Source of the DNA: Lachnospiraceae bacterium
GTDB lineage: Bacteria; Bacillota; Clostridia; Lachnospirales; Lachnospiraceae
Direction of reading: 5' to 3'
Length of the DNA: 37,175 nt
Assembly (NCBI GenBank): GCA_021203465.1
Contig: JAJQBC010000097.1
Location: 1-37,175, forward strand
Of this stretch, positions 2 through 21,511 are shown in pieces. The position numbers and the translations under genes were made by a program. How positions within the stretch are numbered: the first letter of the stretch is position 1; every line of letters starts with the position of its first letter. The notes beneath the pieces were generated by a model. That model saw only the letters and a list, made by a program, of their open reading frames with translations. It was not told where the DNA came from and searched no databases.

Positions 2-2083
2 ACTAACTCCAATTTTCGCCTGTGCCTGCGTGTACACGACATACACGACTCGATCTATATGCTGCGAAATTAGTACTCTGATTATATCACGCAGGCCGGG
101 CGCGGTTATCTGCAAGTCGGCAGCGACGAGATCTACGAGCAGTTCCAGTCCGGCTACAGCGGCGCGGAGTACGTGGATGACCCGGCGCAGAATCGCCCTT
201 CCGTGGCTGTAATGCTGACGCGGACCGGCCGGGTTTCTTTGGAGGGGAACGCTTCCGGGCCGAAGCGCCGCGCGGACGGTACGGCAGTCACGCAGCTCGA
301 CGCGGTTATCGCATACTTATCGCGCATCACGAAGGAGCATCACTATGACCGGGAAATGCTGCTCTGGCTGCCGGTGCTCCCGCGGGAGCTTTATCTTAAC
401 GAGCTGGAAGGCTACGAGGAGCAGAAGAAAAAGATACCGGGAGCGTCCTGGAGTCTCGACGCGATGATCGGCCTTTACGACGATCCGGCAAATCAGGCGC
501 AGAAGCCGCTGCATGTGTCCTTCTCGGAGGGCGGTCATCTGGCGGTCTGCGGGGCGGTGACCAGCGGCAAGAGCACCTTTGTGCAGACGCTGCTTTATTC
601 CCTGCTGGAGCGCTACACGCCGGCGGAGCTGAATTTCTATGTGCTGGACTACAACAGCCGCATGCTGCTGCCCTTCGCGGAAGCACCGCACTGCGGCGGT
701 GTGATTCTCGACACGGACGAGGAGAAGGTGAAGCGCTTCTTTCACATGCTGTCCCAGATGATGGAGGAGCGGAAAAACCAGTTTGGCGGCGGAAACTACA
801 GTCAGTATGTGCGTGCCTGCGGCGGTGAGGTGAAGCTTCCGGCGGTGCTGATCGTGATCGACAATTACGCGGGATTTCGCGAGAAGACGGGCTCACAGTT
901 CGACGACTTTATGGTGCGGCTGTCCCGTGAGGGCGCGGGCTACGGTCTGTTTCTGGTGCTGACGGCGGGCGGTTTTGGCGCGAGCGAGATTCCGGCCCGG
1001 CTCGGTGGAAACATGCGCACGGTGATCTCCCTTGAGATGGGGGATAAATTCAAGTATGCAGAAGTCATGCGTGTCTCGCGGATCGGAATCGTACCGGAGA
1101 CCGATGTGAAGGGGCGCGGCCTGGCGAATGTCGGCGGAAATATTCTGGAATTCCAGACCGCGCTGGCGAGAAAGGCGCCGGACGCCTACGCGCTGTCCGA
1201 GGGCATCCGTGCAGTCTGTAAGAAGGTGGCGGAGGGCTGGAGCGGAAAGCGGGCGGCCCGTATCCCGGTCATACCGGAGAAGCCGACGCTTGCCGATCTG
1301 CAGGAGGCGGAGGGATATGAGGCGGCGCAGGAGAGCCGCCGTTATCTGCCGCTCGGCTACCTCGAGCAGGACGCTTCTCTCTACAGCATCGACCTGTGGC
1401 GTACGTATTGTTATCTGATTCAGGGAAAGAGCCGGACAGGAAAGAAGAATGTGCTGAAGCTTCTTATGCATGCAGCAGTCCGGAAAGCGGGCGCGCGCGT
1501 CTGCCTGATCGAACTGAACGGGAAGGAACTGCAGTCCACGGTGGAGCTTCTGGCGGTCGAGTACCTGTCGGAGGAGACGGCGGTTTACGAGTTCTTCAAG
1601 TCCACGGTGCCGGTCTTCAAGGAGCGGAATCAGCACAAGCGTCAGTTGCTTGCGGAGGGACTGGAGGGCGACACGCTCGCCGAACAGATGAACGGGGGAC
1701 AGCAGATCTTCATCTTTATCGCCGATATGCTCAGTTTTCTGCAGATGGCCTACCGGCCTTCGGAGGGTGTGGGAGACATCCACGCCTATCTGGAAAATAT
1801 CACAGAGAAAGGCAGCAGCCATGGTTTTTATTTCTTTGGCTGTATGCTTCCGGAACAGCACGCGCAGATTTCCGCAAGGCCGGTGTATGCGAACATGATT
1901 TCTTATCAGACGGGCATACACCTTGGAGGAAATACGGGTGCGCAGTGCCTGTTCCAGTTTACCAACATTCCGCATATGGAGCAGCTGAAGGCCGCGAAGC
2001 CGGGGACGGGACTGATCCCGGACGCGGAAGACGCGTCAGTGTCCCGCAAGCTTGTACTTCCGCTGTACAGGGGGAGTAAATGA
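2..2083 (+). CDS. essC: EssC-type T7SS ATPase, C-terminal part (5' partial, in-frame stop near the edge)
   Basis: This is the C-terminal half of the FtsK/SpoIIIE-like motor that drives type VII secretion at the membrane. Homology-like reading starts at base 2 (FRLCLRV) and runs in one frame into QAGRGYLQVGSDEIYEQFQ, the conserved end of the first ATPase domain. A TAG at 71-73 interrupts it; the first usable downstream start is GTG 173. Numbered from that GTG, ATPase domain 2 has Walker A GAVTSGKS (127-134) and Walker B VLIVID (225-230). Domain 3 has a degenerate Walker A (GKSRTGKK, about 418-425, with Lys for Ser/Thr) and a weak Walker B (IFIFIAD), as in the substrate-binding last domain of EssC. 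The stop TGA overlaps the next start (ATGA), implying translational coupling. The stop at 71 lies in a divergent patch at the window edge, so it may be a contig-end error. Confidence 0.88.
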
Positions 2084-2784
2084 TCTGTACAGTGTTTCGC
2101 ACCGCGAAGGCGGAGGCGGCTCTGATCGAGGAGGAACTGCGGAGGAAAACGGCGCTTGCTACCGATGAGCGGCTGGTCGTCGTGGGTCTGTTCACGCGGG
2201 ATGCCTACCAGAGGTTTCTGGACGGCGAGGAGCGGGCGGATGTGATCTGCGTCGATGTCTCCGCGACGCCCGGGATCGGCCATGCGGAGGCGCTGCGCAG
2301 GAGATGTCCGGCTGCGGCGATCGTGCTGCTGGCGGACGTGAAGACGCCGCCGACCGCTTATATGAAACCCACGATTCTGGCCGCGGCGCTGCTCCTAAAG
2401 CCGCTGAGCGTAGAGACGGTGCGCGGCGTGGTGGAGGAGGTCTTCCGCTGTTTTCTGGAGAAAGAGCCGGATGACGGGAGCGTATTCCTTGTGGAGACGC
2501 GCGAGGGAAAGGAACGGATTCCCTGGTCAGATATTCTCTACTTTGAAGCACGTGCGAAGAAGATTTACGCCTGCACCGCGGACAGTGAGTATGGCTTTTA
2601 CGATACGATGGACGCCCTGGAAGAGAGGCTGAAAGACCGCTTCGTGCGCTGCCACAGGAGTTATCTGGCGAACAGGAAACTGATCGAGAAGGTGCGCCTC
2701 TCACAGAATTTCATCACCCTGCAGGGCGATGTGGAGCTGCCGCTGTCGCGCAGCTACAAGGGCGTATTGAAGGAGATGAAGTGA
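2080..2784 (+). CDS. LytTR-family response regulator with atypical receiver domain
   Basis: This 234-residue protein has a receiver-like N-terminal half and a LytTR DNA-binding domain from about residue 132 (SVFLVETREGKERIPWSDI, then DRFVRCHRSYLANRKLI). LytTR proteins bind pairs of direct repeats two helical turns apart and usually activate transcription. The receiver keeps an Asp in VICVDVS (D59) and a Lys in LLLKPLS. It lacks the acidic pair normally seen at the end of strand 1 (MICTVFRTAK), so phosphorylation may be weak or absent. No histidine kinase lies in the window. Its start overlaps the essC stop by 4 bases and its stop overlaps the next ATG, so it belongs to the secretion operon. 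Direct-repeat operators at 3449-3478 and 6071-6100 are plausible targets. Confidence 0.88.
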   Translation: MICTVFRTAKAEAALIEEELRRKTALATDERLVVVGLFTRDAYQRFLDGEERADVICVDVSATPGIGHAEALRRRCPAAAIVLLADVKTPPTAYMKPTILAAALLLKPLSVETVRGVVEEVFRCFLEKEPDDGSVFLVETREGKERIPWSDILYFEARAKKIYACTADSEYGFYDTMDALEERLKDRFVRCHRSYLANRKLIEKVRLSQNFITLQGDVELPLSRSYKGVLKEMK

Positions 2785-3215
2785 TGAAGGACAGAGTACA
2801 TTTATTTACAAAGGAAGAGTTTGTCCTTCTCGCTGCCTGCGCGGGGATACACAGGATGTACGGCTTTGAGACGGGGGCGGACGCGCTGAAGCGGGAAGGC
2901 GCGATCGCGGCGTTGCAAAAACTGCATGTCCGTGGCTGTGTGGAGACAGAGGATGACAGGTTCCGGCTCTGCGGGGAGACGAAGGATCTGTTTGCTGGGA
3001 TACGTGAGGCGGCGACGACGCTGGAGGTGCGCAAATCAAACGGAAGAAGCTGTATGATTTACATAGGCTCTGAGGCGGTGCGGGTCGCGCCGTCCGTCAG
3101 GAGACAGGGAATGCTGGAGGTGCAGGGAATCGCCGTCGCCGATTTGTGGGATTTCCTGCAGGACGAGGGGTGGATATCGAAGGAACAGGAAGAGAGAATG
3201 GAGGAGATTCTGTGA
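2784..3215 (+). CDS. Small T7SS-operon protein, possibly EspG-like
   Basis: This 143-residue protein has no signal peptide or membrane segment. ATG 2784 is chosen because it overlaps the preceding stop (TGATG); a GTG lies one codon upstream. The N-terminal half looks helical (FTKEEFVLLAACAGI, then ALKREGAIAALQKLHVRGCV). The C-terminal half looks like a beta sheet (CMIYIGSEAVRV, then MLEVQGIAVADLWDFLQ). This order of helices, a reach-a-new-row 'LxxRG' element and a sheet resembles EspG chaperones of actinobacterial ESX systems, but I see no diagnostic motif and that idea is an inference. It is translationally coupled on both sides inside the secretion operon, which supports a role in T7SS such as chaperone or targeting factor. 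Confidence 0.72.
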   Translation: MKDRVHLFTKEEFVLLAACAGIHRMYGFETGADALKREGAIAALQKLHVRGCVETEDDRFRLCGETKDLFAGIREAATTLEVRKSNGRSCMIYIGSEAVRVAPSVRRQGMLEVQGIAVADLWDFLQDEGWISKEQEERMEEIL

Positions 3216-3442
3216 TACTTGTGGATATTCTGGTGGCGGCAAATGGAAGGCAATATGATTTCCGTCTGGATGAGGACGCGTACACGGCCGTGATCGTGGA
3301 TGAAATAGGAAAGCAGCTCTCGCCGACGGGCGATGCATCGGACTTGCTGCTCTGCGATTACGAGGCGGGGCAGATCCTGCCGCTCGACCGGACGCTGAAG
3401 CAGCTCGGCATCGGAAATGGAAAAAAGCTGGTGCTGGTCTGA
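3212..3442 (+). CDS. esaB: YukD/EsaB-like ubiquitin-fold T7SS protein
   Basis: This 76-residue protein starts at GTG 3212, which overlaps the previous stop by 4 bases and follows a GGAGGA ribosome site at 3200-3205. The sequence has a beta-grasp pattern: a first strand pair (VDILVAANGRQYDFRL), a helix (YTAVIVDEIGKQL), and the ending LPLDRTLKQLGIGNGKKLVLV. That ending is typical of YukD/EsaB, small ubiquitin-like cytosolic proteins found in T7SSb loci, where they are needed for secretion or regulate it. Position after essC and the LytTR gene supports this. A longer reading frame opens upstream at 3146, but it would overlap the previous gene by 70 bases and lacks a good ribosome site. Confidence 0.85.
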   Translation: MILVDILVAANGRQYDFRLDEDAYTAVIVDEIGKQLSPTGDASDLLLCDYEAGQILPLDRTLKQLGIGNGKKLVLV

Positions 3443-3448: not shown

Positions 3449-3515
3449 GTCGTTCGTCAGAAAAACAGGTCGTCTGTCGCGTTTCATCCGCAGCAGATGC
3501 AAGGCGTGATATTGT
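3449..3515 (+). promoter_or_regulatory. Candidate LytTR operator and promoter of the WXG100 operon
   Basis: Two 10-base direct repeats, GTCGTTCGTC (3449-3458) and GTCGTCTGTC (3469-3478), lie exactly 20 bases apart, about two helical turns. Seven of nine positions of the first repeat fit the general LytTR half-site with its central GTT. Thirty-one bases after the second repeat is an extended -10 (TGA TATTGT, 3507-3515). There is no good -35 box, as expected of an activator-dependent promoter. The predicted start near 3522 leaves a leader of about 15 bases holding AAGGAGGG. The same arrangement recurs at 6071-6137. Confidence 0.72.
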
Positions 3516-3536
3516 AGTATCTGCAAGGAGGGAAAC

Positions 3537-3893
3537 ATGTTAGCAATCGACGTCAGACAGGTAAACAGGACGCTTACTTCCATGGAGAACTGCCTGCGAA
3601 AACTCGAGGCTCTGAATGACGAGGTCGATCAGGTGAGCCGGAAGCTCCGCGAGTATACGGAGATGGAAGAAGTGGTGGCGAGTCTCCATGTTCAGACGGT
3701 GCAGATTGGCGAGCAGAACTACAGTCTGAAGCGGATGACGGACAAGCTTGCCGACATTGTGCAGATCTACAATGATCGCGAGACGGCTATTGCAGGTTAT
3801 GCGGAAGAAGCCGATGCGGCGGCGGGAAGTGCGGCGGTCACGAACTGGGAAGTCCCGGGATGGATCTTCCGGATATTAGGACAGGAGGGATGA
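3537..3893 (+). CDS. Coiled-coil protein of the WXG100 operon
   Basis: This 118-residue protein is preceded by a strong AAGGAGGG site. Residues 5-85 are a long run of heptad-like helix (VNRTLTSMENCLRKLEAL, then LREYTEMEEVVASLHVQTV), followed by a short hydrophobic end with VPGWIFRIL. There is no signal peptide and no clear central WXG: the only tryptophans are near the C-terminus. Helical-hairpin size and first place in the WXG100 operon suggest a WXG100-like partner or secretion accessory protein. I do not recognise a named family. It is the first gene behind the candidate LytTR-controlled promoter. Confidence 0.75.
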   Translation: MLAIDVRQVNRTLTSMENCLRKLEALNDEVDQVSRKLREYTEMEEVVASLHVQTVQIGEQNYSLKRMTDKLADIVQIYNDRETAIAGYAEEADAAAGSAAVTNWEVPGWIFRILGQEG

Positions 3894-3897
3894 AAGG

Positions 3898-4200
3898 ATG
3901 ATTCCGTACACGGAGGTTGACACGGCCAGAATGAACCAGGACATCAGAGTGCTGGAACAGGAGATTGCGAATGCCCGGAGCGGACTCGACAAGATGATGC
4001 AGGAGATCGAACAGCTCAATTCCATGTGGGTTGGCAAGGCAAATATGGCGTTTCGGGTGCAGGTGGCGAAGGATCAGACGACGATGAACGAAGTGCTTGA
4101 CGAGATGGACCGTCTGGTTGACTGCATGACCTATGCGAGCAGCGAGTATGCAAAGTGTGAGAGTGAAGTCCGTAGCGTTGTGGACAGCATCAGAGTATAA
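3898..4200 (+). CDS. WXG100-family protein (1)
   Basis: This 100-residue protein is all helical, with the turn motif W44-V-G46 (NSMWVGKANMAF) in the middle, the hallmark of the WXG100/ESAT-6 superfamily. Such proteins form helical-hairpin dimers and are exported by EssC-type motors. The C-terminal helix carries YxxxE elements (YASSE, YAKCE) of the kind used as export signals. The ATG follows GGAGGGATGAAAGG, only 4 bases after the previous stop. It differs clearly in sequence from the other WXG100 proteins here, so it may pair with one of them as a heterodimer. Confidence 0.9.
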   Translation: MIPYTEVDTARMNQDIRVLEQEIANARSGLDKMMQEIEQLNSMWVGKANMAFRVQVAKDQTTMNEVLDEMDRLVDCMTYASSEYAKCESEVRSVVDSIRV

Positions 4201-4214
4201 GGAGGGATAGAAAC

Positions 4215-4559
4215 ATGGCAATAGCAGGTTTGACGCTGGACAGCTTCCTGAGCGTGCTGAAGGTCAATCCCCAGGTGATGCTGACAAAGGCCTCCACTGT
4301 CAACACACAGATCGGGAACATGAAGAAAGCGTTCGAGGAGCTCGAAGCTTCTGTTAACAACACGAAGAACTACTGGATTGGGGACGCAGGGGACGCGCAT
4401 CGCGCCTATTATACGAACCGAAAGGCGGAGATCGAGGAAATTTTTGCAAGACTTCAGGAACATGTGACGGATTTGCAGCAGATGTCCGCGGTGTATTCGG
4501 GGGCGGAGCAGGAAGCGGAAGCGACGGCGGAGGAACTTCCGTCGGATGTGATCGTATAG
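4215..4559 (+). CDS. WXG100-family protein (2)
   Basis: This 114-residue helical-hairpin protein has W54-I-G56 (KNYWIGDAGDAHRAYY). After the second helix comes a YxxxE element (YSGAE) and a short acidic tail ending in DVIV. The same DVIV ending occurs in the 104-residue WXG100 proteins downstream. An AAGGAGGGA site precedes the ATG. It lies in the middle of the operon. The extra residues compared with a canonical WXG100 are at the N-terminus (LDSFLSVLKVNPQVM), ahead of the first long helix. Confidence 0.9.
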   Translation: MAIAGLTLDSFLSVLKVNPQVMLTKASTVNTQIGNMKKAFEELEASVNNTKNYWIGDAGDAHRAYYTNRKAEIEEIFARLQEHVTDLQQMSAVYSGAEQEAEATAEELPSDVIV

Positions 4560-4569
4560 GAGGTGCAGC

Positions 4570-4887
4570 ATGAAGACGGCTTCAGAAATTCGCTTTAATT
4601 ACAATCAGGCGCTCGCGAGAGCGCAGGAACTGGAGGAGGTTGCTTCTGAGATGAAATCGCTCGCGAATAAAGAGCTGGCGGATTCCATGCAGAATCTTTC
4701 GACGGTCTGGCAGGGAGACTCGGCAACGGCTTTTCTTGGAAAAGGGGCGACGCTGAAAGAGAAAGTTTTAAAAAGTGCAAAAGGCCTGGAGGAGACGGCG
4801 ACCACGATTCGAAATGTAGCAAAACGAATCTATGATGCGGAGATGGCGGCCTACAGGCTTGCAATGGCAAGAAAGTACAACGATTAA
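4570..4887 (+). CDS. WXG100-family protein (3)
   Basis: This 105-residue protein has W47-Q-G49 (LSTVWQGDSATAFL) between two long helices, the typical WXG100 layout. Its C-terminal helix ends in YDAEMAAYRLAMARKYND, which lacks an exact YxxxD/E motif. It may therefore depend on a partner for export. The start codon follows AGGAGGTGCAGC, 10 bases after the previous stop. It is the most basic of the WXG100 proteins in this operon. Confidence 0.9.
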   Translation: MKTASEIRFNYNQALARAQELEEVASEMKSLANKELADSMQNLSTVWQGDSATAFLGKGATLKEKVLKSAKGLEETATTIRNVAKRIYDAEMAAYRLAMARKYND

Positions 4888-4912
4888 ACAAAATTTAAGG
4901 AGGAACAAAAGG

Positions 4913-5215
4913 ATGGCATTGATCAGAGTAACGGCAACACAGCTGAAGGCGCAGGCGGAGGAGCTCAGGACGCTGAACTCCCAGTATAAGGATCAGGTGA
5001 CAGAACTCGAGACTTGTGAGACGAATCTGGCCGGTATGTGGGAAGGCGAGGCGCGGGACGCGTTCCACAACGCCTTCAACAGCGACAAGACCCAGATGAC
5101 GAACTTTTACACGCTGATCGAGCAGTACGTCGCGAAGCTTCTGACGATCGCCGCGAAGTACGAGCAGGCGGAAGCGACGAACCAGGAAATCGCAACAGTT
5201 CGGAACTACCAGTAG
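4913..5215 (+). CDS. WXG100-family protein, type A, copy 1
   Basis: This 100-residue WXG100 protein has W43-E-G45 (GMWEGEARDAFHNAF) and the C-terminal YxxxE element YEQAE. ATG 4913 is chosen over an upstream start at 4832, because AAGGAGGAACAAAAGG sits directly before it and the paralogue at 6811 starts at the same place. By eye the two copies differ at about 11 of 303 bases, and only one difference changes the protein (Gly41 to Ser). It always sits next to the type B gene, so A and B probably act as a pair. Confidence 0.93.
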   Translation: MALIRVTATQLKAQAEELRTLNSQYKDQVTELETCETNLAGMWEGEARDAFHNAFNSDKTQMTNFYTLIEQYVAKLLTIAAKYEQAEATNQEIATVRNYQ

Positions 5216-5306
5216 AGCGCAGCAGAGAACTGAAAACGGCGTAATTACGTCGGAGAACAAACAATCAAGAATACCGTATGGCATAAGCCGAAAGGAGATA
5301 TAGAAA

Positions 5307-5621
5307 ATGGAAGGAACGTTAAGAGTAACACCGGAGCAGCTGCAGTCGGCGGCGAGTGAATTTTCGAGCAGAGGAACCACAGTAGGAAACCTGACCTCCC
5401 AGATGACGAATCTGGTGACGGGGCTGAGCAGTATCTGGGAGGGCGAGGCCTTTACAGCTTACACGACGAAGTTCCGGCAGCTGGATGACGATATTCAGAA
5501 GATCATCCGCATGATCACGGAGCACAGCGAGGATCTGACCGAGATGGCGCGCATCTACAGCGAGGCCGAGACCGCGAATCAGGAGGAGATCGCGAGCCTG
5601 GCGGGGGATGTGATCGTTTAA
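5307..5621 (+). CDS. WXG100-family protein, type B, copy 1
   Basis: This 104-residue WXG100 protein has W44-E-G46 (SSIWEGEAFTAYTTKF), YxxxE (YSEAE) and a DVIV tail. A CGAAAGGAGATATA site precedes the ATG and is conserved in the second copy. The protein is identical to that encoded at 7269-7583, although the genes differ at about 18 codons by eye, all silent. This shows strong selection on the protein after an old duplication. It follows type A copy 1 by 91 bases. The last codons are followed by the remains of another gene. Confidence 0.93.
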   Translation: MEGTLRVTPEQLQSAASEFSSRGTTVGNLTSQMTNLVTGLSSIWEGEAFTAYTTKFRQLDDDIQKIIRMITEHSEDLTEMARIYSEAETANQEEIASLAGDVIV

Positions 5622-5685
5622 GAGAATGAAATGAAGCATACTGACCGGATGAGGCAAAGTATGGAGAAAAAGAGGGAGAACAGGA

Positions 5686-6005
5686 TGAAACAAAGAAATC
5701 GACGGAAATCTCCCGGCGCAAAACAGGCCCTGTGCCTGTCTTTGTGCTGTGTTTTGCAACAGTGAATTCCTGATTGATATCTATGGAAACAAGGCACCGG
5801 ACAACGACAGACCCTGTCTGTCGGTTTGGTCTCTGCAGCAGGGACATCAGATGGACAAACCGGCTACGGGGTCTTTGACCTGTTCACCGGAAGACAGCTT
5901 CTGGACTATAAGTACAGCTCTATACAGTACGTATCCGGCTATATCTATGCGCTGGATAATGCGCAGAATACCTGGACGATATACAAGGTGAACCTGTCGC
6001 TTTAG
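5686..6005 (+). pseudogene. Remnant of a gene with a WG-repeat-like C-terminus
   Basis: No single frame spans this stretch, but its end reads well in the frame stopping at TAG 6003: GYGVFDLFTGRQLLDYKY, followed by SGYIYALDNAQNTWTIYKV. This resembles the repeats of WG-repeat or similar beta-propeller-like extracellular proteins. The first part has a start (ATG 5686) with a basic then Cys/Leu-rich segment that stops at 5763, in another frame. I infer a decayed secreted or lipid-anchored protein with internal deletions or frameshifts. It lies between two copies of the duplicated WXG100 pair, so it was probably broken during that rearrangement. Confidence 0.55.
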
Positions 6006-6041
6006 ATTTTGCCGGATGAGCAGGCAAAGGAGGAAGAAACG

Positions 6042-6068
6042 TGAAAGTACAATTCAGGCTTGTGTGAA
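6042..6068 (+). pseudogene. Truncated gene start (8 codons)
   Basis: A good ribosome site (AAAGGAGGAAG, about 6027-6037) precedes GTG 6042. The reading frame encodes only VKVQFRLV before a TGA at 6066-6068. The next bases are the LytTR-type operator at 6071. It looks like the beginning of the next operon gene, cut off where the operator/promoter segment was joined. A functional micro-ORF or leader peptide cannot be excluded. Confidence 0.4.
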
Positions 6069-6070
6069 GT

Positions 6071-6137
6071 GTCATTCGTCGGAAAAACAGGTCGTCTGTC
6101 GGGATTCTGACGCTCCTTCCGAGTGATGTGTTATCCT
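6071..6137 (+). promoter_or_regulatory. Second candidate LytTR operator and promoter
   Basis: Direct repeats GTCATTCGTC (6071-6080) and GTCGTCTGTC (6091-6100) again have a 20-base period. Exactly 31 bases later is an extended -10 (TGT TATCCT, 6129-6137), the same geometry as at 3449-3515. The segment from the first repeat to the end of the second matches the upstream site at 28 of 30 bases; the following 31 bases do not match, so the operator is conserved and not just copied with its surroundings. It should drive the secreted-protein gene at 6218 and perhaps the WXG100 pair after it. Confidence 0.72.
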
Positions 6138-6217: not shown

Positions 6218-6730
6218 ATGACAACTACAAAGAAAGCATTTCAAACACGTTTCATTACACTTTTACTGGCATGCGCGCTTATTTTTACTGCAGTGCTGAC
6301 CAACACAACCATGACCGTTTTTGCAGCAACGACGGGAGGAACCGACACCAAGACTATTACAGTAAAAACACAGTCTAATTGGTACAAGCCAGGTTCAGAG
6401 AGCATTACCCTCAGACAGAATAAACAGACGATCACTTACAAAAATGTTTCTGGAAAGGCAAAAGAAATAACAGGCTATTATGGTTATTATACCATTACCG
6501 TTTATAACAAAACAGACAATAAGACCAGCACAGTTTACTGGAAGGGCGGAAAAACCTACAAAATTTCCCTTGGTCGAGATAAGACTTATTCTATTAAGGT
6601 GGCCTATAATGCAAGCCAGACAAACTTAAAGGCATTAGCGGCGATGCCCAAGACGGGGTGGAGGAATATGAGCTATACATCTGCAAGCTGGTATGTAAGT
6701 TCAACCTGTAAGGTTTCCAGTTATCACTAA
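6218..6730 (+). CDS. Small secreted protein, low GC, unknown function
   Basis: This 170-residue protein has a clear Sec signal peptide: basic start (TTTKKAFQTRF), hydrophobic core (ITLLLACALIFTAVL) and a likely cleavage after VFA at residue 36. The mature part of about 134 residues is rich in Thr, Tyr, Lys and Ser, with short strand-like pieces (KTITVKTQSNWY, TVYWKGGKTYKISLG). This suggests a small beta-sandwich outside the cell or at the wall. There is no lipobox or LPXTG. Its base composition is visibly more AT-rich than its neighbours, which suggests recent acquisition. It has its own LytTR-type promoter at 6071-6137 and a GAAGGGAGA ribosome site. I do not recognise a family. Confidence 0.78.
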   Translation: MTTTKKAFQTRFITLLLACALIFTAVLTNTTMTVFAATTGGTDTKTITVKTQSNWYKPGSESITLRQNKQTITYKNVSGKAKEITGYYGYYTITVYNKTDNKTSTVYWKGGKTYKISLGRDKTYSIKVAYNASQTNLKALAAMPKTGWRNMSYTSASWYVSSTCKVSSYH

Positions 6731-6810
6731 TTTCCCCAGTATCAGACAGAAGTTTCGGGAAAGAAGCTACTGACAACCAAAGTCAGAGAAATTAAAGGAG
6801 GAACAAAAAG

Positions 6811-7113
6811 ATGGCATTGATCAGAGTAACGGCAACACAGCTGAAGGCGCAGGCGGAGGAGCTCAGAACGCTGAACTCCCAGTATAAGGATCAGGTGACA
6901 GAACTCGAGACCTGTGAGACGAATCTGGCCAGTATGTGGGAAGGCGAGGCGCGGGACGCGTTCCACAACGCTTTCAACAGCGACAAGACCCAGATGACGA
7001 ATTTTTACACGCTGATCGAGCAGTACGTCGCGAAGCTTCTTACGATCGCCGCGAAGTACGAGCAGGCGGAGGCGACAAATCAGGAAATCGCGACAGTCCG
7101 GAACTACCAGTAG
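6811..7113 (+). CDS. WXG100-family protein, type A, copy 2
   Basis: This 100-residue paralogue of the protein at 4913-5215 is identical except Ser for Gly41 just before the W-E-G motif (SMWEGEARDAF). The ribosome site AAAGGAGGAACAAAAAG is also conserved, but similarity stops a few bases upstream of it. The duplicated unit therefore begins about at the Shine-Dalgarno sequence. It lies downstream of the low-GC secreted-protein gene and may be co-transcribed with it from the second LytTR-type promoter. Confidence 0.93.
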   Translation: MALIRVTATQLKAQAEELRTLNSQYKDQVTELETCETNLASMWEGEARDAFHNAFNSDKTQMTNFYTLIEQYVAKLLTIAAKYEQAEATNQEIATVRNYQ

Positions 7114-7268
7114 AGCGTCAGCTCAACAGCCATAGCACTGGAACAGGCAAGACGTGTCTCTTACCAGGACAAAAGTCAAACGGGCAGACTGTTTTACGCT
7201 GACGCGCGGCTACAGTCTGAGATTATCAAAGAACATACCGATACACAAGCCGAAAGGAGATATAGGAA

Positions 7269-7583
7269 ATGGAAGGAACATTGAGAGTTACACCGGAGCA
7301 GCTGCAGTCGGCGGCAAGCGAATTTTCGAGCAGAGGAACCACAGTAGGAAACCTGACCTCTCAGATGACGAATCTGGTGACGGGTTTGAGCAGTATCTGG
7401 GAGGGCGAGGCTTTCACGGCTTACACGACGAAGTTCCGGCAGCTGGATGACGATATTCAGAAGATCATCCGCATGATCACGGAGCACAGCGAGGACTTGA
7501 CCGAGATGGCGCGCATCTACAGCGAGGCCGAGACTGCGAACCAGGAGGAGATCGCGAGTCTTGCGGGTGATGTGATCGTTTAG
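7269..7583 (+). CDS. WXG100-family protein, type B, copy 2
   Basis: This 104-residue protein is identical in sequence to that at 5307-5621, with W44-E-G46, YSEAE and the DVIV end. The gap to type A copy 2 is 155 bases, compared with 91 in copy 1. The two gaps are unlike except for the last 20 or so bases carrying the ribosome site. The genes were therefore kept while the spacers drifted or were replaced. A GC-rich hairpin follows at 7599-7625. Confidence 0.93.
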   Translation: MEGTLRVTPEQLQSAASEFSSRGTTVGNLTSQMTNLVTGLSSIWEGEAFTAYTTKFRQLDDDIQKIIRMITEHSEDLTEMARIYSEAETANQEEIASLAGDVIV

Positions 7584-7598
7584 AAAGTCGTATCAAAA

Positions 7599-11555: not shown

Positions 11556-12416
11556 TTATGAAAACTCTGCCTTCAGAAATTTCTTTGGTGTGGTTCCCTT
11601 ATATTTATGGAAAGTCCGGATAAAGTAGCTCTCGTCGTTGAAACCGCAGGAGATTGCAGTTTCCTTGATTGAAAGGTTCTTCGTGGAGAGCATTTCGCAA
11701 GCACATTCGATCCGAAAGTAATTTAGGTAGTCGATCGGTGTGCGCCCTGTCACGCTGCGGAAACAGCAGCAGAAATATTTCGAGTTCATGCCCGCGATCC
11801 GCGCGAGGCTGTCGAGGCTGATATTGCCGGAATAGTTGTCCGAAATGTAGGCGAGGACGCTTTTCATTGAGTTCAGGCGCTCCGCGGCGACGGCGTCGCT
11901 CTTGTTTTCCTCATATAGATGCTCGCTGAGAATCACGCCAAGGAGCTGGTACAGGTAGCCCTGTGTCAGAAATTCATATCCGGTCTCGCGTCTGGAGAGC
12001 GCGTCGGTCAGCCCTTCGATGATCGGCGAGACCAGATTGCAGCGCTGTGAGAGCAGCGTATGGACCAGAATCTTGTGATCCCGTATATCCTGAATGGTTT
12101 TCGCGCAGGCCTGATTGTCCTTCAACAGAAATTCCAGATCAAACAAAATACAGTCGTAGACACAGCTGTGATCCACCGGGCTTCCGCCGTGGAGTGTACC
12201 GCCTGTGACAAGGACGACGTCCCCGGCATGGTAGGTTCTGGTGAGATTGTCGAGCGTGAGCTGAAATGCGCCGGACAGAATGTGGATGATTTCATAGTGC
12301 AGATGCCAGTGGTAGGTCATGTAGTAGCGTGGGCTGTAGGAGGTCTGGTGATAGAAGGCGATTGGAAAAGTGAAGGTGCCCTGTTCGCGGCGTTCCCGGT
12401 AGTCGAGGTATTTCAT
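11556..12416 (-). CDS. AraC-family transcription regulator of the fucose cluster
   Basis: This 286-residue protein has an N-terminal cupin sugar-sensing domain (HWHLHYEIIHILSGAFQL, then YHAGDVVLVTGGTLHG). Its C-terminal AraC DNA-binding domain has two helix-turn-helix motifs (LDSLARIAGMNSKYFCCCF and IKETAISCGFNDESYFIRTF) and ends in the usual TPKKFL. It is divergent from fucI with a 125-base shared region, the normal arrangement for an AraC activator of a sugar catabolic operon. The start has a GGAGAAAC ribosome site. An unusual CCCC run (CFCCCF) lies in the first recognition region. Confidence 0.9.
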   Translation of the reverse strand: MKYLDYRERREQGTFTFPIAFYHQTSYSPRYYMTYHWHLHYEIIHILSGAFQLTLDNLTRTYHAGDVVLVTGGTLHGGSPVDHSCVYDCILFDLEFLLKDNQACAKTIQDIRDHKILVHTLLSQRCNLVSPIIEGLTDALSRRETGYEFLTQGYLYQLLGVILSEHLYEENKSDAVAAERLNSMKSVLAYISDNYSGNISLDSLARIAGMNSKYFCCCFRSVTGRTPIDYLNYFRIECACEMLSTKNLSIKETAISCGFNDESYFIRTFHKYKGTTPKKFLKAEFS

Positions 12417-12470
12417 GAAGTTTCTCCATATAATGAGTGAATTTTGTGCTATTTTTTTTTAGTATATCAC

Positions 12471-12499
12471 TTTTGTTTGCGATTGTCATTCTTTATAAT
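12471..12499 (+). promoter_or_regulatory. Probable fucI promoter
   Basis: A perfect -10 (TATAAT, 12494-12499) lies 42 bases before fucI. The matching -35 position, 17 bases upstream (TTTTGT, 12471-12476), is poor. This fits a promoter that needs help from the divergently encoded AraC protein. The AraC gene's own promoter must lie in the same 125-base gap, in the AT-rich run near 12450-12475. Confidence 0.55.
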
Positions 12500-12541
12500 G
12501 AGAATATCTGAAAAAACGTACAATATGAAGGAGGAAGCATT

Positions 12542-14347
12542 ATGGCAAAGAGAGGACTGATCGGCGGTTATCCCGTGATTGGTATTCGTCCTGTGATTGA
12601 CGGGCGGCGTGGACCGATGAAGCTCCGTGAGAGTCTGGAAGACCAGACGATGGAGATCGCACAGGCGGCGAAGAAGTTATACGAGGAGAATCTTCGCTAT
12701 TCGAATGGAGAACCGGTCAAGGTTGTGATCGCGGATACCTCGATCGGACGTTATCCGGAGAGTGCGGCCTGCGCGGAGAAGTTCCGCAAGGAGGGCGTGG
12801 ACATCACGCTGACCGTGACGCCGTGCTGGTGCTATGGTTCTGAGACGATGGATGCCGATCCGATGACCATCAAGGGCGTGTGGGGCTTCAATGGCACGGA
12901 GCGCCCGGGTGCGGTTTATCTGGCGAGCGTTCTGGCGACGCACGCGCAGAAGGGGCTTCCGGCTTTCGGCATTTATGGACATGAGGTACAGGACATCGAT
13001 CAGGTGAGTGAGATTCCGGAGGATGTGAAGGAGAAGCTGCTTCGCTTCGGACGTGCGGCGGTTGCTGCTGCCACGATGAGAGGGAAGTCTTACCTGCAGA
13101 TCGGTTCCATCTGCATGGGCATCGGCGGCTCGATCATTGATTCCAATTTCATCGAGGAATATCTTGGCATGCATGTAGAGTCTGTGGACGAAGTCGAGAT
13201 TCTGCGCCGCATGGAGGAAGGTATTTATAATAAGGCGGAGTACGAGAGAGCGCTCGCCTGGACGAAGGAGCACTGCAAGGAAGGCCGCGATGACAATCCG
13301 GACTTCGTGAAGTTCAACCGTGAGCAGAAGGATAAGCAGTGGGAGTTCACGATCAAGATGTACTGCATCATCAAGGATCTGATGCTGGGTAATCCGGAAC
13401 TTCCGGAGCAGTTTGAGGAGGAGATGGCCGGACACAACGCGATCGCTGCCGGTTTTCAGGGACAGCGTCAGTGGACCGATCATTGGCCGAACTGCGATTA
13501 CCCGGAGGCGGTGCTGAATTCTACCTTCGATTTCGAGGGCAAGAAGGAGCCGATGATCCTCGCGACGGAGAATGATGTGCTGAACGGTCTTGGCATGCTG
13601 TTCATGAAGCTTCTGACCGGACGCGCACAAATCTTCGCGGACGTGCGTACTTACTGGTCGCCGGAGGCCACGAAGCGCGTGACCGGCTACGACCTTGAGG
13701 GCGTGGCGAAGGAGAACGGCGGCATTATCCACCTGCTGAACTCCGGTGCGGCCTGCCTGGACGCCTGCGGCGAGTGCCGTGACGCAGATGGCAATGCGAT
13801 CATGAAGCAGTGGTGGGATGTGACCGAGGAGGATATCAAGAAGATGACCGACGCGACCGTATGGTGCGAGGCCGGCTTTGACAATTTCCGCGGCGGCGGA
13901 TATTCCTCTCACTTCACGACGAGAGCTGAGATGCCGGTGACGATGATCCGTCTGAATCTTGTGAAGAATTTGGGACCGGTTCTGCAGATCGCAGAGGGCT
14001 GGACTGTGAAGCTGCCGGATGAGGTCTCCGATGTCCTGATGGAGCGTACGAATCCGACCTGGCCCTGCACTTGGTTTACGCCGAGATGCACCGGCGAGGG
14101 CGCCTTCAAGAGCGCATACGATGTGATGAACAACTGGGGCGCAAATCACGGTGCGATCAGCTACGGCCACATCGGCGCAGACCTCATCACGCTGGCTTCG
14201 ATCCTTCGCATTCCGGTCTGCATGCACAATGTACCGGAGGAGAAGATCTTCCGCCCATCCGCGTGGAATGCGTTCGGCATGGACAAGGAAGGCCAGGATT
14301 TCCGGGCATGCAGCGCATATGGCCCGATGTATAAGACAATCAAATAA
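12542..14347 (+). CDS. fucI: L-fucose isomerase
   Basis: This 601-residue enzyme converts L-fucose to L-fuculose in the cytosol (also D-arabinose to D-ribulose in this family), using Mn2+. The length matches family members of about 590. Conserved metal and catalytic positions are visible: Glu343 in [13 protein letters not shown], Asp367 in [12 protein letters not shown] and His543 in [13 protein letters not shown]. These correspond to E337, D361 and H528 of the E. coli enzyme. The N-terminus [21 protein letters not shown] is typical. It starts at ATG 12542 after GAAGGAGGAAGC. It is the first gene of the cluster, followed by the transporter operon with its own promoter. Confidence 0.97.
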
Positions 14348-14380
14348 ATGATAATTTCCTGCGTGTGTAGCGGAGTTCCG

Positions 14381-14431
14381 TTGACAGGGAGAGTTGACTT
14401 GTGTATAATAGATGTATTATTTTTCCCTGTC
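14381..14431 (+). promoter_or_regulatory. Consensus promoter inside an inverted repeat
   Basis: TTGACA (14381-14386), 17 bases, TATAAT (14404-14409) is a perfect sigma-A promoter for the transporter genes. GACAGGGA (14383-14390, overlapping the -35) and its exact inverse TCCCTGTC (14424-14431, just after the expected start near 14416) flank it. A perfect promoter bracketed this way suggests repression by a protein binding both arms. The repressor is unknown. Confidence 0.8.
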
Positions 14432-14486
14432 GATGATCTCCGCAGCATTACGCATTTTCGCCGTTTCCGGATTGGGGGATCAGTAA

Positions 14487-14534
14487 CCGTGTATCATTGG
14501 CCGGAATTTAAAGCGACTGGCCGGTGGCACACGG
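14487..14534 (+). other. Leader hairpin in the transporter mRNA
   Basis: CCGTGT (14487-14492) pairs with ACACGG (14529-14534). After a 2x2 internal loop, CA-TTGGCC (14495-14502) pairs with GGCCGG-TG (14519-14526), using two G-U pairs. The apical loop is 16 bases. It sits in a leader of about 180 bases between the promoter and GTG 14595. No T run follows, so it is not an intrinsic terminator. Its function is unknown. Confidence 0.45.
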
Positions 14535-14594
14535 CGCGGGAACGGGAAACAGGGTTTTATATGTGGCCATGCAAGGAAATCAGGAGGAAAACAA

Positions 14595-15581
14595 GTGGAT
14601 AAGATCAGAAACAATGCAATCGTTAAAAAGATTGGATTTAACAGCCTGGTACTGCTCTGTGTGCTGGTACTGCTGTTTATTTTATTTGCCATTCTTACCC
14701 CGATTATGAAGCCCGGTACGACGTTCCTGAGTTATTCCCGTATCGTGAGCATTTTCAATTATGCTTATTTTCTGGGATTTTTGTCTCTGGGCGTCACCTT
14801 CGTGATCGCGACCGGCGGGATCGACTTCTCGATCGGCCCGGTTATGTACTGCGCGGCGCTGATTTCGGGACAGCTTCTCACGAAGAACGGACTGCCGATC
14901 GGAGCCTGTCTGCTGATCAGCATTCTGGTGGGTATCATTTTCGGATGTATCAATGGCATTCTCGTGGCTTACGGCGGCCTGCCGTCTTTCATCACCTCGA
15001 TGGCGAGCATGATGATCGCGAAGGGCGTCGGCAGTGTATTCACGAAGACACAGTCCGTCAGCTGGCCGGGCGGCTGGTATCAGAATCTGGTGAAATGGAC
15101 GGTGGGCGGCGTCGAGATCCCGACCGGTATCATCATCCTCTTTGCGGGAGCCGCGATCTGTGCGGTTGTGCTGAACCAGACGAAGATTGGGCGCTACATA
15201 CTCTGCATCGGAAGCAACCGTGAGGCGGTTAGGCTTTCCGGTGTTGATACAAAGAAGTGGGAGATGCTGGCTTATATCATCTGCGGCGCACTTGCGGGAG
15301 TTGCTGCGATCTTCTATGTTACGGTTTATACGACGGTCCTGCCGGGCGGCGGCGACACCTTCAATAACGACGCGATTGCCGGCTGCGTCATGGGCGGCAC
15401 CTCGATGGCTGGCGGCGTTGCTTCCATCGGTGGCACGCTGATTGGTGTTGTAATCATCTCGCTCCTGCAGGTTGGTATCCTCGCGATGGGTTATCAGAGT
15501 CAGTATCAGTATGTGATCACCGGACTGATTGTTCTGGCGGTTGTATACGCGGATCTGCGCAGTCGTCGCAGAAGTAATTAA
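14595..15581 (+). CDS. Sugar ABC transporter permease (RbsC/AraH type), first
   Basis: This 328-residue integral membrane protein has about eight to ten hydrophobic segments and the family motif GGIDFSIGP in TM3, followed later by the cytoplasmic-loop pattern GSNREAVRLSGVD. It forms part of the channel of a ribose-type (CUT2) importer. The start is GTG 14595 after CAGGAGGAAAAC. It is the first gene of the transporter operon and lies 24 bases from the ATPase. A second permease of the same family follows the ATPase, so the channel is probably a heterodimer. Substrate by context: L-fucose or a similar 6-deoxy sugar. Confidence 0.93.
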   Translation: MDKIRNNAIVKKIGFNSLVLLCVLVLLFILFAILTPIMKPGTTFLSYSRIVSIFNYAYFLGFLSLGVTFVIATGGIDFSIGPVMYCAALISGQLLTKNGLPIGACLLISILVGIIFGCINGILVAYGGLPSFITSMASMMIAKGVGSVFTKTQSVSWPGGWYQNLVKWTVGGVEIPTGIIILFAGAAICAVVLNQTKIGRYILCIGSNREAVRLSGVDTKKWEMLAYIICGALAGVAAIFYVTVYTTVLPGGGDTFNNDAIAGCVMGGTSMAGGVASIGGTLIGVVIISLLQVGILAMGYQSQYQYVITGLIVLAVVYADLRSRRRSN

Positions 15582-15605
15582 TCAGAAAGGGGAAGGAGAG
15601 CAGAT

Positions 15606-17099
15606 ATGGGTGACGTAATTTTAACCATGAAAGGCATCGACAAATCATTCCCCGGCGTGCATGCGCTGGATCATGTAGATCTGGAAGTCCGCAAGGGCGA
15701 GGTGCACGCGCTGATGGGTGAAAACGGAGCCGGAAAGTCAACGCTGATGAAGGTCCTGACCGGTATCTATAAAAAGGACGAGGGAACGATTACCTATGAA
15801 GGAAAGGAAGTCGAGTTCTCAAATCCGCGCGAGGCGCAGGACGCCGGTATCGTGATCGTCCATCAGGAGCTGAATATGATGGGACACCTGACGGTGGCGC
15901 AGAATATCTTCATCGGGCGCGAGATCATGAAGGGAAAGCTCATCGACGATAAGAAGATGAATGAAGAGGCGAAAAAACTGTTCGATCGCCTTGGTATCGA
16001 TATCGACCCGACGGAGACGATGAGCCGTCTGACGGTCGGAAAACAGCAGATGTGTGAGATCGCGAAGGCGATTTCTCATGACGCAAAGGTCATTATCTTT
16101 GACGAGCCGTCGGCGGCACTGACGGAAGCAGAGATCGAAGAACTGTTCAAGATCATCTGTGACCTGCGGGATAAGCAGCTCGGCATCGTCTACATCTCTC
16201 ACCGTATGGATGAGATCAAGGTGATCACGGACCGTGTAACAGTCATGCGAGACGGCGGTTATGTCGGCACGCTGATCACAGAAGACTGTACGAAAGACGA
16301 CATCATCAACATGATGGTCGGACGTGTCATCTATGAGGAGCCGAAGACGCAGAGTGCTGTCGCTCCGGACGCACCGGTCGTGCTGAAGGTGGAACATCTG
16401 AACGCAGGCCGCATGGTGCAGGATGTCAGCTTTGAGTTGAGAAAAGGCGAGATTCTCGGCTTCTCAGGCCTGATGGGAGCCGGACGTACCGAGACGGCGA
16501 GAGCACTGTTTGGCGCAGATCCGAAAGACAGCGGCGATGTCTATATCAATGGCAAAAAGGTGGATATCAAAACGCCGCAGGACGCTGTCAGGAACGGCAT
16601 CGGTTATCTCTCGGAGGATCGCAAGCGTTATGGTATCGTCGTCGACAAGACGATCGCGGAGAACTCCACGATGGCCTCCCTCGAACGCTTCATGAAGGGC
16701 ATTTTCATTAACAAGAAGAAGGAGAACGAGGCGGCGCAGGAGTATGTGGACGCATTAAATACTAAGACGCCGGGCGTCGACCAGCTGGTTGTCAATCTTT
16801 CCGGAGGAAACCAGCAGAAGGTCGTCATCGCGAAGTGGCTGGTGCGGAACTGTGACATCCTGATTTTCGACGAGCCGACCCGTGGTATTGACGTCGGCGC
16901 GAAGAGTGAGATTTATACGCTGATGAATAAACTGGCAGCAGAGGGTAAATCAATCATCATGATTTCTTCAGAGATGACGGAAATCCTCAGAATGAGCGAT
17001 CGGATCGTGGTCATGTGTGAGGGCAAGAAGACCGGAGAACTGAGTATCGAAGAAGCCACACAGGAAAAGATCATGCACGCGGCGACGCTCAGGAATTAG
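15606..17099 (+). CDS. Sugar ABC transporter ATPase, double domain (RbsA/MglA type)
   Basis: This 497-residue protein has two fused nucleotide-binding domains. Domain 1 has Walker A GENGAGKST (38-46), a diverged signature (LTVGKQQMCEIAKAI) and Walker B VIIFDEPSAAL. Domain 2 has a degenerate Walker A (GLMGAGRTE) with intact signature LSGGNQQKVVIAKWL and Walker B ILIFDEPTRGIDVGAK. This asymmetry is normal for CUT2 ATPases: the first site is the active one. It powers import by the two flanking permeases. The ribosome site is GAAAGGGGAAGGAG. The next gene starts within 16 bases, so co-translation is likely. Confidence 0.96.
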   Translation: MGDVILTMKGIDKSFPGVHALDHVDLEVRKGEVHALMGENGAGKSTLMKVLTGIYKKDEGTITYEGKEVEFSNPREAQDAGIVIVHQELNMMGHLTVAQNIFIGREIMKGKLIDDKKMNEEAKKLFDRLGIDIDPTETMSRLTVGKQQMCEIAKAISHDAKVIIFDEPSAALTEAEIEELFKIICDLRDKQLGIVYISHRMDEIKVITDRVTVMRDGGYVGTLITEDCTKDDIINMMVGRVIYEEPKTQSAVAPDAPVVLKVEHLNAGRMVQDVSFELRKGEILGFSGLMGAGRTETARALFGADPKDSGDVYINGKKVDIKTPQDAVRNGIGYLSEDRKRYGIVVDKTIAENSTMASLERFMKGIFINKKKENEAAQEYVDALNTKTPGVDQLVVNLSGGNQQKVVIAKWLVRNCDILIFDEPTRGIDVGAKSEIYTLMNKLAAEGKSIIMISSEMTEILRMSDRIVVMCEGKKTGELSIEEATQEKIMHAATLRN

Positions 17100-17114
17100 G
17101 AGGTGGAAGAGATC

Positions 17115-18116
17115 ATGACAGACAAGAAAAAAGGAAATGTGTTTACAAACAATCCGATCGTGAGAGCGGTTGGCGTACAGAAAATTGTAGTCCTGCTGGT
17201 TCTGATCCTCCTGCTGGTGTTCTTTGGGGCGATGAGCCCGTCCTTCCGGAAATACTCGACGCTTCTGAGTATTATGGACTATACATACTATCTGGCTTTC
17301 CTGGGTATGGGCGTGACTTTCTGTCTCATCACCGGAGGCGTTGATCTTTCGATCGGTACTGGCATGTTCTGCTACGCGATTATCGGCGGTTATCTGATCA
17401 CCAAACAGGGTATGCCCGTTATCGTCGGTATTCTCGTGACGCTGGGCTGTGGTCTGCTCATGGGAACGGTCAACGGCCTGATTGTCTCGCGCGGCGGGCA
17501 CGCGCCTTTCCTTGCGACGCTCTGTACCATGATGATTGTCCGCGGACTCGGGGCGATCGTGACGAACAGCACAAGTGTGACCTGGCCGGCATCGAACGTA
17601 GCGAATGGCTGGACAAGGAAGATTTTTAAGATCACAGTTGGAAATACCAAATTTCCACTGGGGCTGGTATGGGTCATCCTGCTGGCGATTCTGCTGAGCA
17701 TGCTTCTGAACAGGACAAAAGCCGGGCGTTATATCATCGCGATTGGCAGCAACAAGGAGGCGGCGAGGCTCTCCGGTGTGAACGTGGCGAACTATCAGAT
17801 GCTGGCCTATATGATCTGTGGTCTGATGACCGGCCTTGCCGGCTTGGCCTACAGCTCCGCGTTCCAGTCGATGACGCCGAGCGGCGGCAGCGGGATTGAG
17901 CTGAACGCGATCGGCGGCGCGATCATCGGCGGTACATCGATGAGCGGAGGATCCGGGAGTATTGCGGGTACGCTGCTGGGTGTGTTTATCATGTCGGTTT
18001 TGCAGACCGGCCTGCCTTTCATCGGAATCCAGTCAAACTATCAGCAGATTATCATCGGTCTGGTGCTGATCCTCGCGGTCTACGTTGATGTGCTGAAGAA
18101 TAAGAAACTGGCGTAA
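17115..18116 (+). CDS. Sugar ABC transporter permease (RbsC/AraH type), second
   Basis: This 333-residue membrane protein is homologous to the first permease, with GGVDLSIGTGMF and GSNKEAARLSGVN in matching places and about eight to ten hydrophobic segments. ATG 17115 is chosen over GTG 17103, because the AGGAGGT site (17099-17105) is at the right distance and would overlap the GTG. Two distinct permeases around one double ATPase indicate a heteromeric channel rather than the homodimer of classic RbsABC. The C-terminus ends in KNKKLA on the cytoplasmic side. Confidence 0.93.
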   Translation: MTDKKKGNVFTNNPIVRAVGVQKIVVLLVLILLLVFFGAMSPSFRKYSTLLSIMDYTYYLAFLGMGVTFCLITGGVDLSIGTGMFCYAIIGGYLITKQGMPVIVGILVTLGCGLLMGTVNGLIVSRGGHAPFLATLCTMMIVRGLGAIVTNSTSVTWPASNVANGWTRKIFKITVGNTKFPLGLVWVILLAILLSMLLNRTKAGRYIIAIGSNKEAARLSGVNVANYQMLAYMICGLMTGLAGLAYSSAFQSMTPSGGSGIELNAIGGAIIGGTSMSGGSGSIAGTLLGVFIMSVLQTGLPFIGIQSNYQQIIIGLVLILAVYVDVLKNKKLA

Positions 18117-18189
18117 CAGGTGTCAGCTTCCGAGAGGAAGTTTACATACAAAATATCCCAATAAGGGAAAATTAAAGGAGGAATGCAAC

Positions 18190-19374: not shown

Positions 19375-19412
19375 TCACTACCTGTTCTAAAGTCTGAAAA
19401 GACACGAAAACC

Positions 19413-19444
19413 AAACGGGACATGCCTCACGGTGTGTCCCGTTT
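19413..19444 (+). terminator. Strong hairpin after the binding-protein gene
   Basis: AAACGGGACA (19413-19422) pairs perfectly with TGTCCCGTTT (19435-19444). The stem continues inward for four more pairs (two of them G-U) to a TCAC loop, 14 pairs in all. Only TTT inside the stem follows, with no separate T run. It may terminate part of the transcripts and protect the abundant binding-protein mRNA, so that less fucU/kinase mRNA is made. Confidence 0.6.
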
Positions 19445-19466
19445 CCTGAATAACGAGGTGAATGCA

Positions 19467-19907: not shown

Positions 19908-19922
19908 TTTTCCGAGGGTTTC

Positions 19923-19985
19923 AAAGTCATGAATGCGGATGTTTCTATGACAGGCCTTATGCTGCTATATTCGGTTCATGACTTT
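19923..19985 (+). promoter_or_regulatory. Inverted repeat in the fucU-kinase gap
   Basis: AAAGTCATGAA (19923-19933) and TTCATGACTTT (19975-19985) are perfect 11-base inverted repeats 41 bases apart. A weak -10-like TATATT (19966-19971) lies between them. The 190-base gap between fucU and the kinase gene holds nothing else I can name. The repeat could be a double operator or a long-loop RNA stem. Confidence 0.4.
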
Positions 19986-20098
19986 TCTGACCCTGATATA
20001 ACATCCTAGAAATATCCTGTGTTTCATGCTGGGATGAACAGAGTTTAGTTATTTGCGGGATGTGGTATTGTTATTACATGAATAAGGGGGAAAACCGA

Positions 20099-21496: not shown

Positions 21497-21511
21497 ACAG
21501 GAGGAAGAATT

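Follow-up and report, generated by a model that had tools for sequence, protein, structure and literature searches.

How are the genes of a type VII secretion system (T7SS) and its substrates switched on in Lachnospiraceae? The question is raised by a DNA stretch of 37,175 nucleotides (nt) from Lachnospiraceae bacterium (GCA_021203465.1, contig JAJQBC010000097.1), referred to here as the window; it is one whole contig, and its left end cuts the gene of EssC. Two short, nearly identical repeat elements in this locus lie upstream of WXG100 genes, and a LytTR protein is encoded at 2080-2784. An earlier note on this DNA had read the elements as LytTR-type operators serving T7SS substrate genes. 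In this study, comparative data were found to support that reading: the place of the element, its nearly constant geometry and its neighbours recur across genera of the Lachnospiraceae, and the element tracks the EssC-linked LytTR. We consider it highly probable that each of the two elements serves as an operator for the LytTR protein encoded with the T7SS; this protein would activate the WXG100 operon and a second WXG100 pair together.

The two elements and the predicted promoters behind them are the following:

3449..3478, forward strand: operator 1 (putative), two 10-bp direct repeats, GTCGTTCGTC and GTCGTCTGTC, with a period of 20 and an A-rich spacer; the yukD stop lies 6 nt before it.
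3507..3515, forward strand: extended -10 element TGA-TATTGT of the candidate WXG100 operon promoter, hexamer at 3510-3515; relatives carry it at the same position relative to the operator.
6071..6100, forward strand: operator 2 (putative), GTCATTCGTC and GTCGTCTGTC, with a period of 20; the same site is found in the near-identical locus L033 at 20516.
6129..6137, forward strand: extended -10 element TGT-TATCCT of the second candidate promoter, hexamer at 6132-6137.

The identity of 28/30 between 3449-3478 and 6071-6100 that the earlier note had reported was borne out, with exact coordinates, and the 10-nt spacer between the repeats is likewise conserved (AGAAAAACAG and GGAAAAACAG). The two 10-mers within a site differ at two positions in the first site and at three in the second. 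The -10 element had been placed 31 nt past the second repeat in both promoters, which is true of the hexamer; the preceding TGN starts after 28 nt. The bases between repeat and -10 are indeed unrelated (identity 14/31), and the 40 nt upstream of the two sites agree at 15/40. An ordinary housekeeping promoter was rejected, since a sigma-70 scan reported a -35/-10 pair at neither promoter. Transcripts would start at about 3522 and 6144.

Within the whole window, four same-strand diagonals of 30-mers reach at least 28 identities. The operator pair is one of them; the other three are coding, one inside a lipoyl-domain protein and two from the duplicated WXG100 pair. The genome-wide motif search that had been proposed as a check (own genome, 3.24 Mb, up to three mismatches) returned two places, both of them the reported sites, and a control with the reversed pattern gave 0 matches. 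As the second site is located ahead of the duplicated pair of WXG100 genes, the repeat might be regarded as a by-product of that local duplication, or as a mobile repeat, with no regulatory meaning in either case. However, the poorly agreeing flanks of the two sites, the presence of just two copies in the genome, and the preservation of place and -10 distance in relatives whose LytTR proteins are about 31-56% identical all speak against this explanation, which was rejected as extremely improbable.

In the window, the genes are ordered as EssC C-terminal part, LytTR, a small protein termed G3, YukD, operator 1, and then a coiled-coil protein and five WXG100 genes; further downstream lie operator 2, a low-GC secreted-protein gene and the second WXG100 pair. 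A search of 299 genomes of the family with the LytTR protein gave matches in 89 genomes at an expectation value (E) of 1e-10, from which 22 LytTR genomes were set apart (best E below 1e-24; next genome 4e-17); six additional LytTR loci were taken from public genomes. A match to the window's EssC part stood just before the LytTR gene in 26/26 relative loci examined. In a matrix scan, seeded mostly from the loci that were then scanned, 10 of 27 loci had the same 30-mer at 0.67-1.19 kb behind the LytTR gene with a score above 23 bits, and another five (L040, L046, L049, L052, L054) had a lower-scoring one there; most of these sites lie just behind yukD. Seventeen sites were aligned with one-base gaps, which gave a distance to the -10 of 30 or 31 nt, and several loci missed by the first matrix showed half-sites with a period of 21 at the same place. 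The fixed geometry claimed earlier is thus exact in both window promoters, whereas relatives vary, with a period of 20 or 21 and a -10 distance of 30 or 31.

Because of the period-21 half-sites, a combined score (half-site, half-site and -10; both strands) was used that allows both periods and both distances, with the sites of each locus's own genome left out. For 20 of the 24 LytTR-genome loci, the window included, the best-scoring position was among the 315 nt that follow yukD; for yukD loci without this LytTR (29 genomes), the count was 0 of 32 (Fisher 1.4e-11, not corrected for kinship). Among loci without any training site, 7/11 ranked first behind yukD. The 24 test loci came from 28 LytTR loci, with L035, L056, L057 and L058 left out, and for genomes G058 and G090 the yukD-bearing contig was ranked. 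The controls came from 38 regions around YukD matches, six of which were excluded: five from LytTR genomes, and L083, in which the YukD match is inside an open reading frame (ORF) of 1510 residues. Upstream of the LytTR gene itself, where an autoregulated LytTR regulatory system (LRS) would have an operator before the regulator's own operon, no site was accepted in the stretches searched (about 2-16 kb in relatives); two weak scores there, in L039 and L043, were among those not accepted. Many of these stretches end near EssC, and the promoter of the operon may lie beyond them, in a part that the window lacks.

The association with this LytTR also holds genome-wide. Profile R1 (17 sites, 75 positions) was searched in the same 299 genomes and gave 32 matches at E up to 1e-4, of which 31 were in 12 of the 22 LytTR genomes and one was in G189. 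Ten of these matches are training sites; 21 of the other 22 are in LytTR genomes. Among genomes without a training site, R1 matches were found in 4/14 with the LytTR and in 1/277 without it (P 1.7e-5). Profile R2, built from 35 sites, gave 34 matches at the same E level in 13/22 LytTR genomes, 27 of them from its own training set, and no such match in 18 yukD-bearing genomes without the LytTR (best 0.0016). Outside the first sample, the only fresh positives were four extra, distant sites in G300, which were not part of the R2 training. Some relatives carry 3-10 sites, several of them before WXG100 or other substrate-like genes.

Two natural controls, one case each, agree with this association. 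G703, from the window's genus, has the same T7SS type (EssC 44%, YukD 47% and two WXG100 proteins 61-62.5% identical to those of the window) with contiguous EssC, YukD and WXG100 genes, and this locus is without LytTR, G3 and operator; the best LytTR of G703 is distant (7e-18) and encoded elsewhere in the genome. The window's own genome has a second, different T7SS on contig C80 (L219, C80:12000-27049), in which LytTR, G3 and operator were not found. L219 encodes an EssC of about 1535 residues, a YukD-like protein and two WXG100 proteins, together with what by eye is a kinase-like protein; an ORF that looks integrase-like, also by eye, precedes them.

Beyond the family, operator-like sites were found near EssC- or WXG100-linked LytTRs in G456 (15.7) and G623 (14.5 and 13.4), scores that some chance maxima in the control loci match or exceed (up to 19.8). 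The two G623 sites are alike well beyond the half-sites. These sites are kept as a lead only. A further operator-like site, with a period of 21 and 26.6 bits, occurs in L206 from 1896 (G322), on a contig that also encodes a relative of the G456 and G623 LytTRs; no T7SS match was found in the L206 stretch examined.

Which genes would be controlled? The features of the window locus are:

173..2083, forward strand: C-terminal part of EssC, an FtsK/SpoIIIE ATPase (PF01580, 1.2e-22); the gene is cut by the contig start.
2080..2784, forward strand: LytTR regulator, with a degenerate receiver-like N-terminal domain and a LytTR DNA-binding domain (residues 146-233).
2781..3215, forward strand: G3, a small protein co-occurring with the LytTR, suspected to be an EspG/TsiG-like chaperone or a regulatory partner.
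3212..3442, forward strand: YukD/EsaB-like protein (Pfam PF08817, 5.5e-8); the ORF is 3146-3442, and the GTG start at 3212 was assigned by eye.
3537..5621, forward strand: presumed first controlled unit, the coiled-coil protein (3537-3893) followed by five WXG100 genes.
3898-4200, 4215-4559, 4570-4887, 4913-5215 and 5307-5621, forward strand: the five WXG100 genes, PF06013 in all five.
6218..6730, forward strand: secreted-protein gene of low GC content (40.5%), with operator 2 on one side and the second WXG100 pair on the other; no Pfam match.
6811..7583, forward strand: second WXG100 pair, genes 6811-7113 and 7269-7583; in L183, directly behind the same site.

In most loci read, the operator on the yukD side is followed by the coiled-coil/WXG100 unit. 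The exceptions, by the genes first behind the operator, are L051 (a lipoprotein and Mbeg1-like genes), L042 (a kinase-like protein) and L055 (a 427-residue ORF). Second sites stand before a WXG100 gene in L034 and before WXG100 pairs in L051 and L183. The earlier note had named the WXG100 operon and the low-GC gene as promoter targets; the former holds, whereas the conserved second target is the second WXG100 pair. In L183, which represents the near-identical locus L033/L183, the site is followed directly by the pair, and the gene at 6218-6730 is missing there. The low-GC gene looks like local cargo, an extra of the window.

Distant sites of G134, G166, G148, G210, G188 and G300 precede WXG100, Mbeg1-like or coiled-coil-profile-matching proteins: WXG100 genes in G134 and G166, and a lipoprotein followed by Mbeg1-like proteins in G148, with a similar trio in G210 by eye. 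Proteins behind distant sites matched a home-made profile of the coiled-coil component in L131 (1.8e-6), L182 (5e-5) and L139 (1.3e-3), values that apply within a small set. In G300, one site precedes an LXG-like protein (by eye) with weak metallopeptidase matches; the others lie before a CAP-domain secreted protein, before an M48 peptidase with a zinc ribbon, and in one case without a clear gene.

The WXG100 pair is duplicated near-identically in the window (4891-5620 and 6769-7586); L033/L183 also has two copies of the pair, with about 7 kb of other genes between them, including an Mbeg1-like one. The roughly 450 nt from the WXG100 operon to operator 2 (5622-6070) contain short broken frames, which may be relics of substrate genes such as L033 has there; neither this segment nor the low-GC gene had a tblastx match at 1e-3 among the fetched loci. 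Further along the window, 11556-23000 is a deoxy-sugar use cluster, with an AraC-type regulator, L-fucose isomerase, RbsD/FucU, two FGGY kinases, a sugar-binding protein and transporter-like genes (by eye).

Several observations weigh against the proposed LytTR operator. Four of the 24 test loci did not rank first: L042 (rank 3), L047 (rank 7), L050 (rank 6) and L053 (rank 193); L053 belongs to G134, where the WXG100 operon is on another contig that does carry sites. L035, left out of the test, has no top-scoring site behind yukD; control L063 ranked second; and control L074 has an EssC and a more distant LytTR but no site. The tolerance of 20/21 and 30/31 was set after inspection of the relatives, and the controls were picked by YukD match, with a complete T7SS not a criterion, which slightly lowers our confidence. 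A strong R1 match (G189:C16:214537-214598, L144) is in a genome without this LytTR; by eye, it precedes a 155-residue protein and an ATP-binding-protein-like gene. An enlarged search (397 genomes, about 98 of them new) gave no new site-bearing genome; among the new genomes, the LytTR search covered only G703. Behind the relatives' sites, 5/10 proteins searched against Pfam had no match, the genes that follow the two sites on C19 of G101 show no T7SS features, and no clear gene follows the two sites of G171. The fit of the half-site to the general LytTR consensus is weak (6.35/9 positions; column-permutation P 0.038). Finally, the tie of G3 to the LytTR is as strict as that of the operator.

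This last point raises the possibility that the operator is real and is bound by G3 (2781-3215), by G3 together with the LytTR, or by another factor of the locus, the LytTR acting elsewhere. The G3 profile matched 27/27 of the LytTR loci searched; in the control regions its matches were limited to L071 (6e-19) and a weak one in L073 (5e-4). Since G3 and operator are equally tied to the LytTR, co-occurrence alone does not single out the binder. The profile also has faint winged-helix matches (DEP domain 0.0098, MotA 0.79, MarR 1.1); Pfam, NCBIfam and PDB searches with G3 were fruitless, and there was no EspG match by sequence. However, direct repeats two helical turns apart, 30-31 nt before an extended -10, form the published LytTR layout, at least in the portions of those reports that were available. 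In addition, L071 has G3 with no operator scored (its contig begins there), and G3-like proteins adjoin substrate-like genes, as a second copy in L205 and weakly in L182. This is where a chaperone would be expected, and it suggests that G3 may be a chaperone. Binding by G3 or another factor therefore appears unlikely to us.

The LytTR protein predicted at 2080-2784 was confirmed by Pfam (PF04397, 2.7e-23), and its relatives in PDB include AgrA (3bs1) and ComE (4cbv). A tree of 55 LytTR proteins groups all 28 T7SS-linked ones of this kind in a single clade (support 100/99) and places the class-level T7SS-linked LytTRs of G456 and G623 in a separate lineage. A plasmid search with the protein gave no match at 1e-15. 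No Pfam match to Response_reg was found in the window protein. Key receiver positions were assigned by eye in 27 LytTR sequences, with the acidic pair judged only where the N-terminus was complete. The receiver Asp is present in 26/27 (Glu in one), the Thr/Ser position is Ala in 24, Val in 2 and Ser in 1, and the Lys position is Lys in 11 and Arg in 14; the acidic pair is absent from the window protein. Judged by these residues, the N-terminal domain is not the receiver of a classical two-component response regulator.

How would such a regulator act? From the layout of the sites, we infer binding by the LytTR protein and activation rather than repression, with the start sites given above. A LytTR dimer would sit on both half-sites, two helical turns apart. 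With a start about 7 nt behind the -10 hexamer, the half-sites would be at about -73 to -64 and -53 to -44, where the LytTR protein may stand in for the missing -35 and recruit RNA polymerase to the extended -10 promoter. Both the WXG100 operon and the second pair, along with its cargo gene, would then be switched on together, and in the relatives, scattered substrate-like operons would come under the same regulator through the same operator. Repression by the LytTR protein is, if anything, less probable still than binding by G3: the site is upstream of the core promoter, leaves the -10 and start free and replaces a missing -35, and comparable LytTR sites are activator sites in the portions available of PMC6193735 and PMC2766830.

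The signal is probably not a classical phosphorelay. This is suggested by the degenerate receiver together with the genes of L033, where a Ser/Thr kinase, a TPR protein and two FHA proteins are encoded upstream of EssC, and where no histidine kinase was found among the scanned proteins. The 1560-residue EssC of L033, 95% identical to the window's EssC part over the matching region, contains FHA (1.4e-12) and FtsK (6.7e-56) domains, and the LytTR gene is directly behind it. The signal may come from the secretion machine or from Ser/Thr phosphorylation. A broader idea, which we hold tentatively and think rather doubtful as a whole, is that the operator serves as a genome-wide address label for T7SS substrates in Lachnospiraceae, with the degenerate-receiver LytTR set by the secretion machine so that transcription keeps in step with secretion; its inputs may include the possibly EspG-like chaperone G3, EssC, or the Ser/Thr kinase and FHA proteins of the locus.

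The occurrence of the same operator before scattered substrate-like operons defines a candidate T7SS regulon. LytTR regulons themselves are known; what appears to be new is one with the published geometry that serves a T7SS and its scattered substrates. A dedicated operator predicts promoters of WXG100 genes and ties unlinked substrate-like genes to one machine, and the 75-position operator profile can list candidate substrates, including ones without a known domain. The degenerate receiver raises the question of how the state of secretion reaches transcription. In the literature searched, as far as it was accessible, no description of T7SS gene control in gut Clostridia was found, nor any paper that connects T7SS genes with a LytTR protein through an operator or regulon; TsiN, discussed below, is the only related mention.

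The promoters described here share with those of HdrR/BrsR (LRS), SilA and YpdB, so far as the available portions of these accounts go, two direct repeats just before the promoter and often an extended -10. The promoters of AgrA reportedly provide a further LytTR-activated example. An LRS also includes a membrane inhibitor protein that is co-transcribed with the regulator. The LytTR-type spacing that the earlier note had proposed matches that of published promoters in the sections available (PMC4847170, PMC6193735, PMC2766830). A LytTR site is described as a pair of 9-11-nt repeats separated by 11-13 nt, and no consensus is common to all such sites (PMC4847170); if the repeats here are taken as 9-mers, their spacers measure 11 or 12 nt. 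LRS sites are 9-bp repeats 12 bp apart, typically 10 bp before the -35, for example ACCGCTTGT-12-ACCGCTTAT (PMC6193735); by the same count, the -10 lies 31-32 nt away here and about 33 nt away in that example (10+6+14+3). SilA sites are 10-bp repeats with an 11-bp AT-rich spacer, and a one-base change of the spacer eliminates activity (PMC2766830). The half-site differs: it is GTCRTYTGTC here and ACCRCTTRY in the LRS examples as summarised (PMC6193735), although one half-site, that of L042, begins with the published ACCGCTTGT. Unlike the known LytTR promoters, those described here have a type VII secretion system as their probable target.

For the transcriptional control of T7SSb, a 2023 review names SigB, ArlRS, Agr, SaeRS, DegSU and a GntR-type factor with IreK (PMC10765036). 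T7SSb resembles the present case in having transcriptional control of T7SS genes, in one instance with a Ser/Thr kinase; no regulator encoded beside EssC with its own operator is described in the text available, from which the words LytTR, Lachnospir and promoter are absent. The closest likeness is to T7SSi, in which a LytR-like protein, TsiN, found only in Vallitalea, has been considered a possible regulator (PMC11217815; Garrett, Higginson, Palmer 2024). In both systems, a predicted LytR-type regulator is encoded among the T7SS core genes, EssC carries an FHA domain, and the position of the WXG100 genes varies and is often next to substrates; T7SSi also has the EspG-like TsiG, whose counterpart here, G3, is only suspected to be EspG/TsiG-like. 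In the available text, the account of TsiN includes no operator, promoter or regulon. While TsiN is confined there to Vallitalea, the LytTR protein described here is spread over genera of the Lachnospiraceae and combines a degenerate receiver with a candidate operator of its own.

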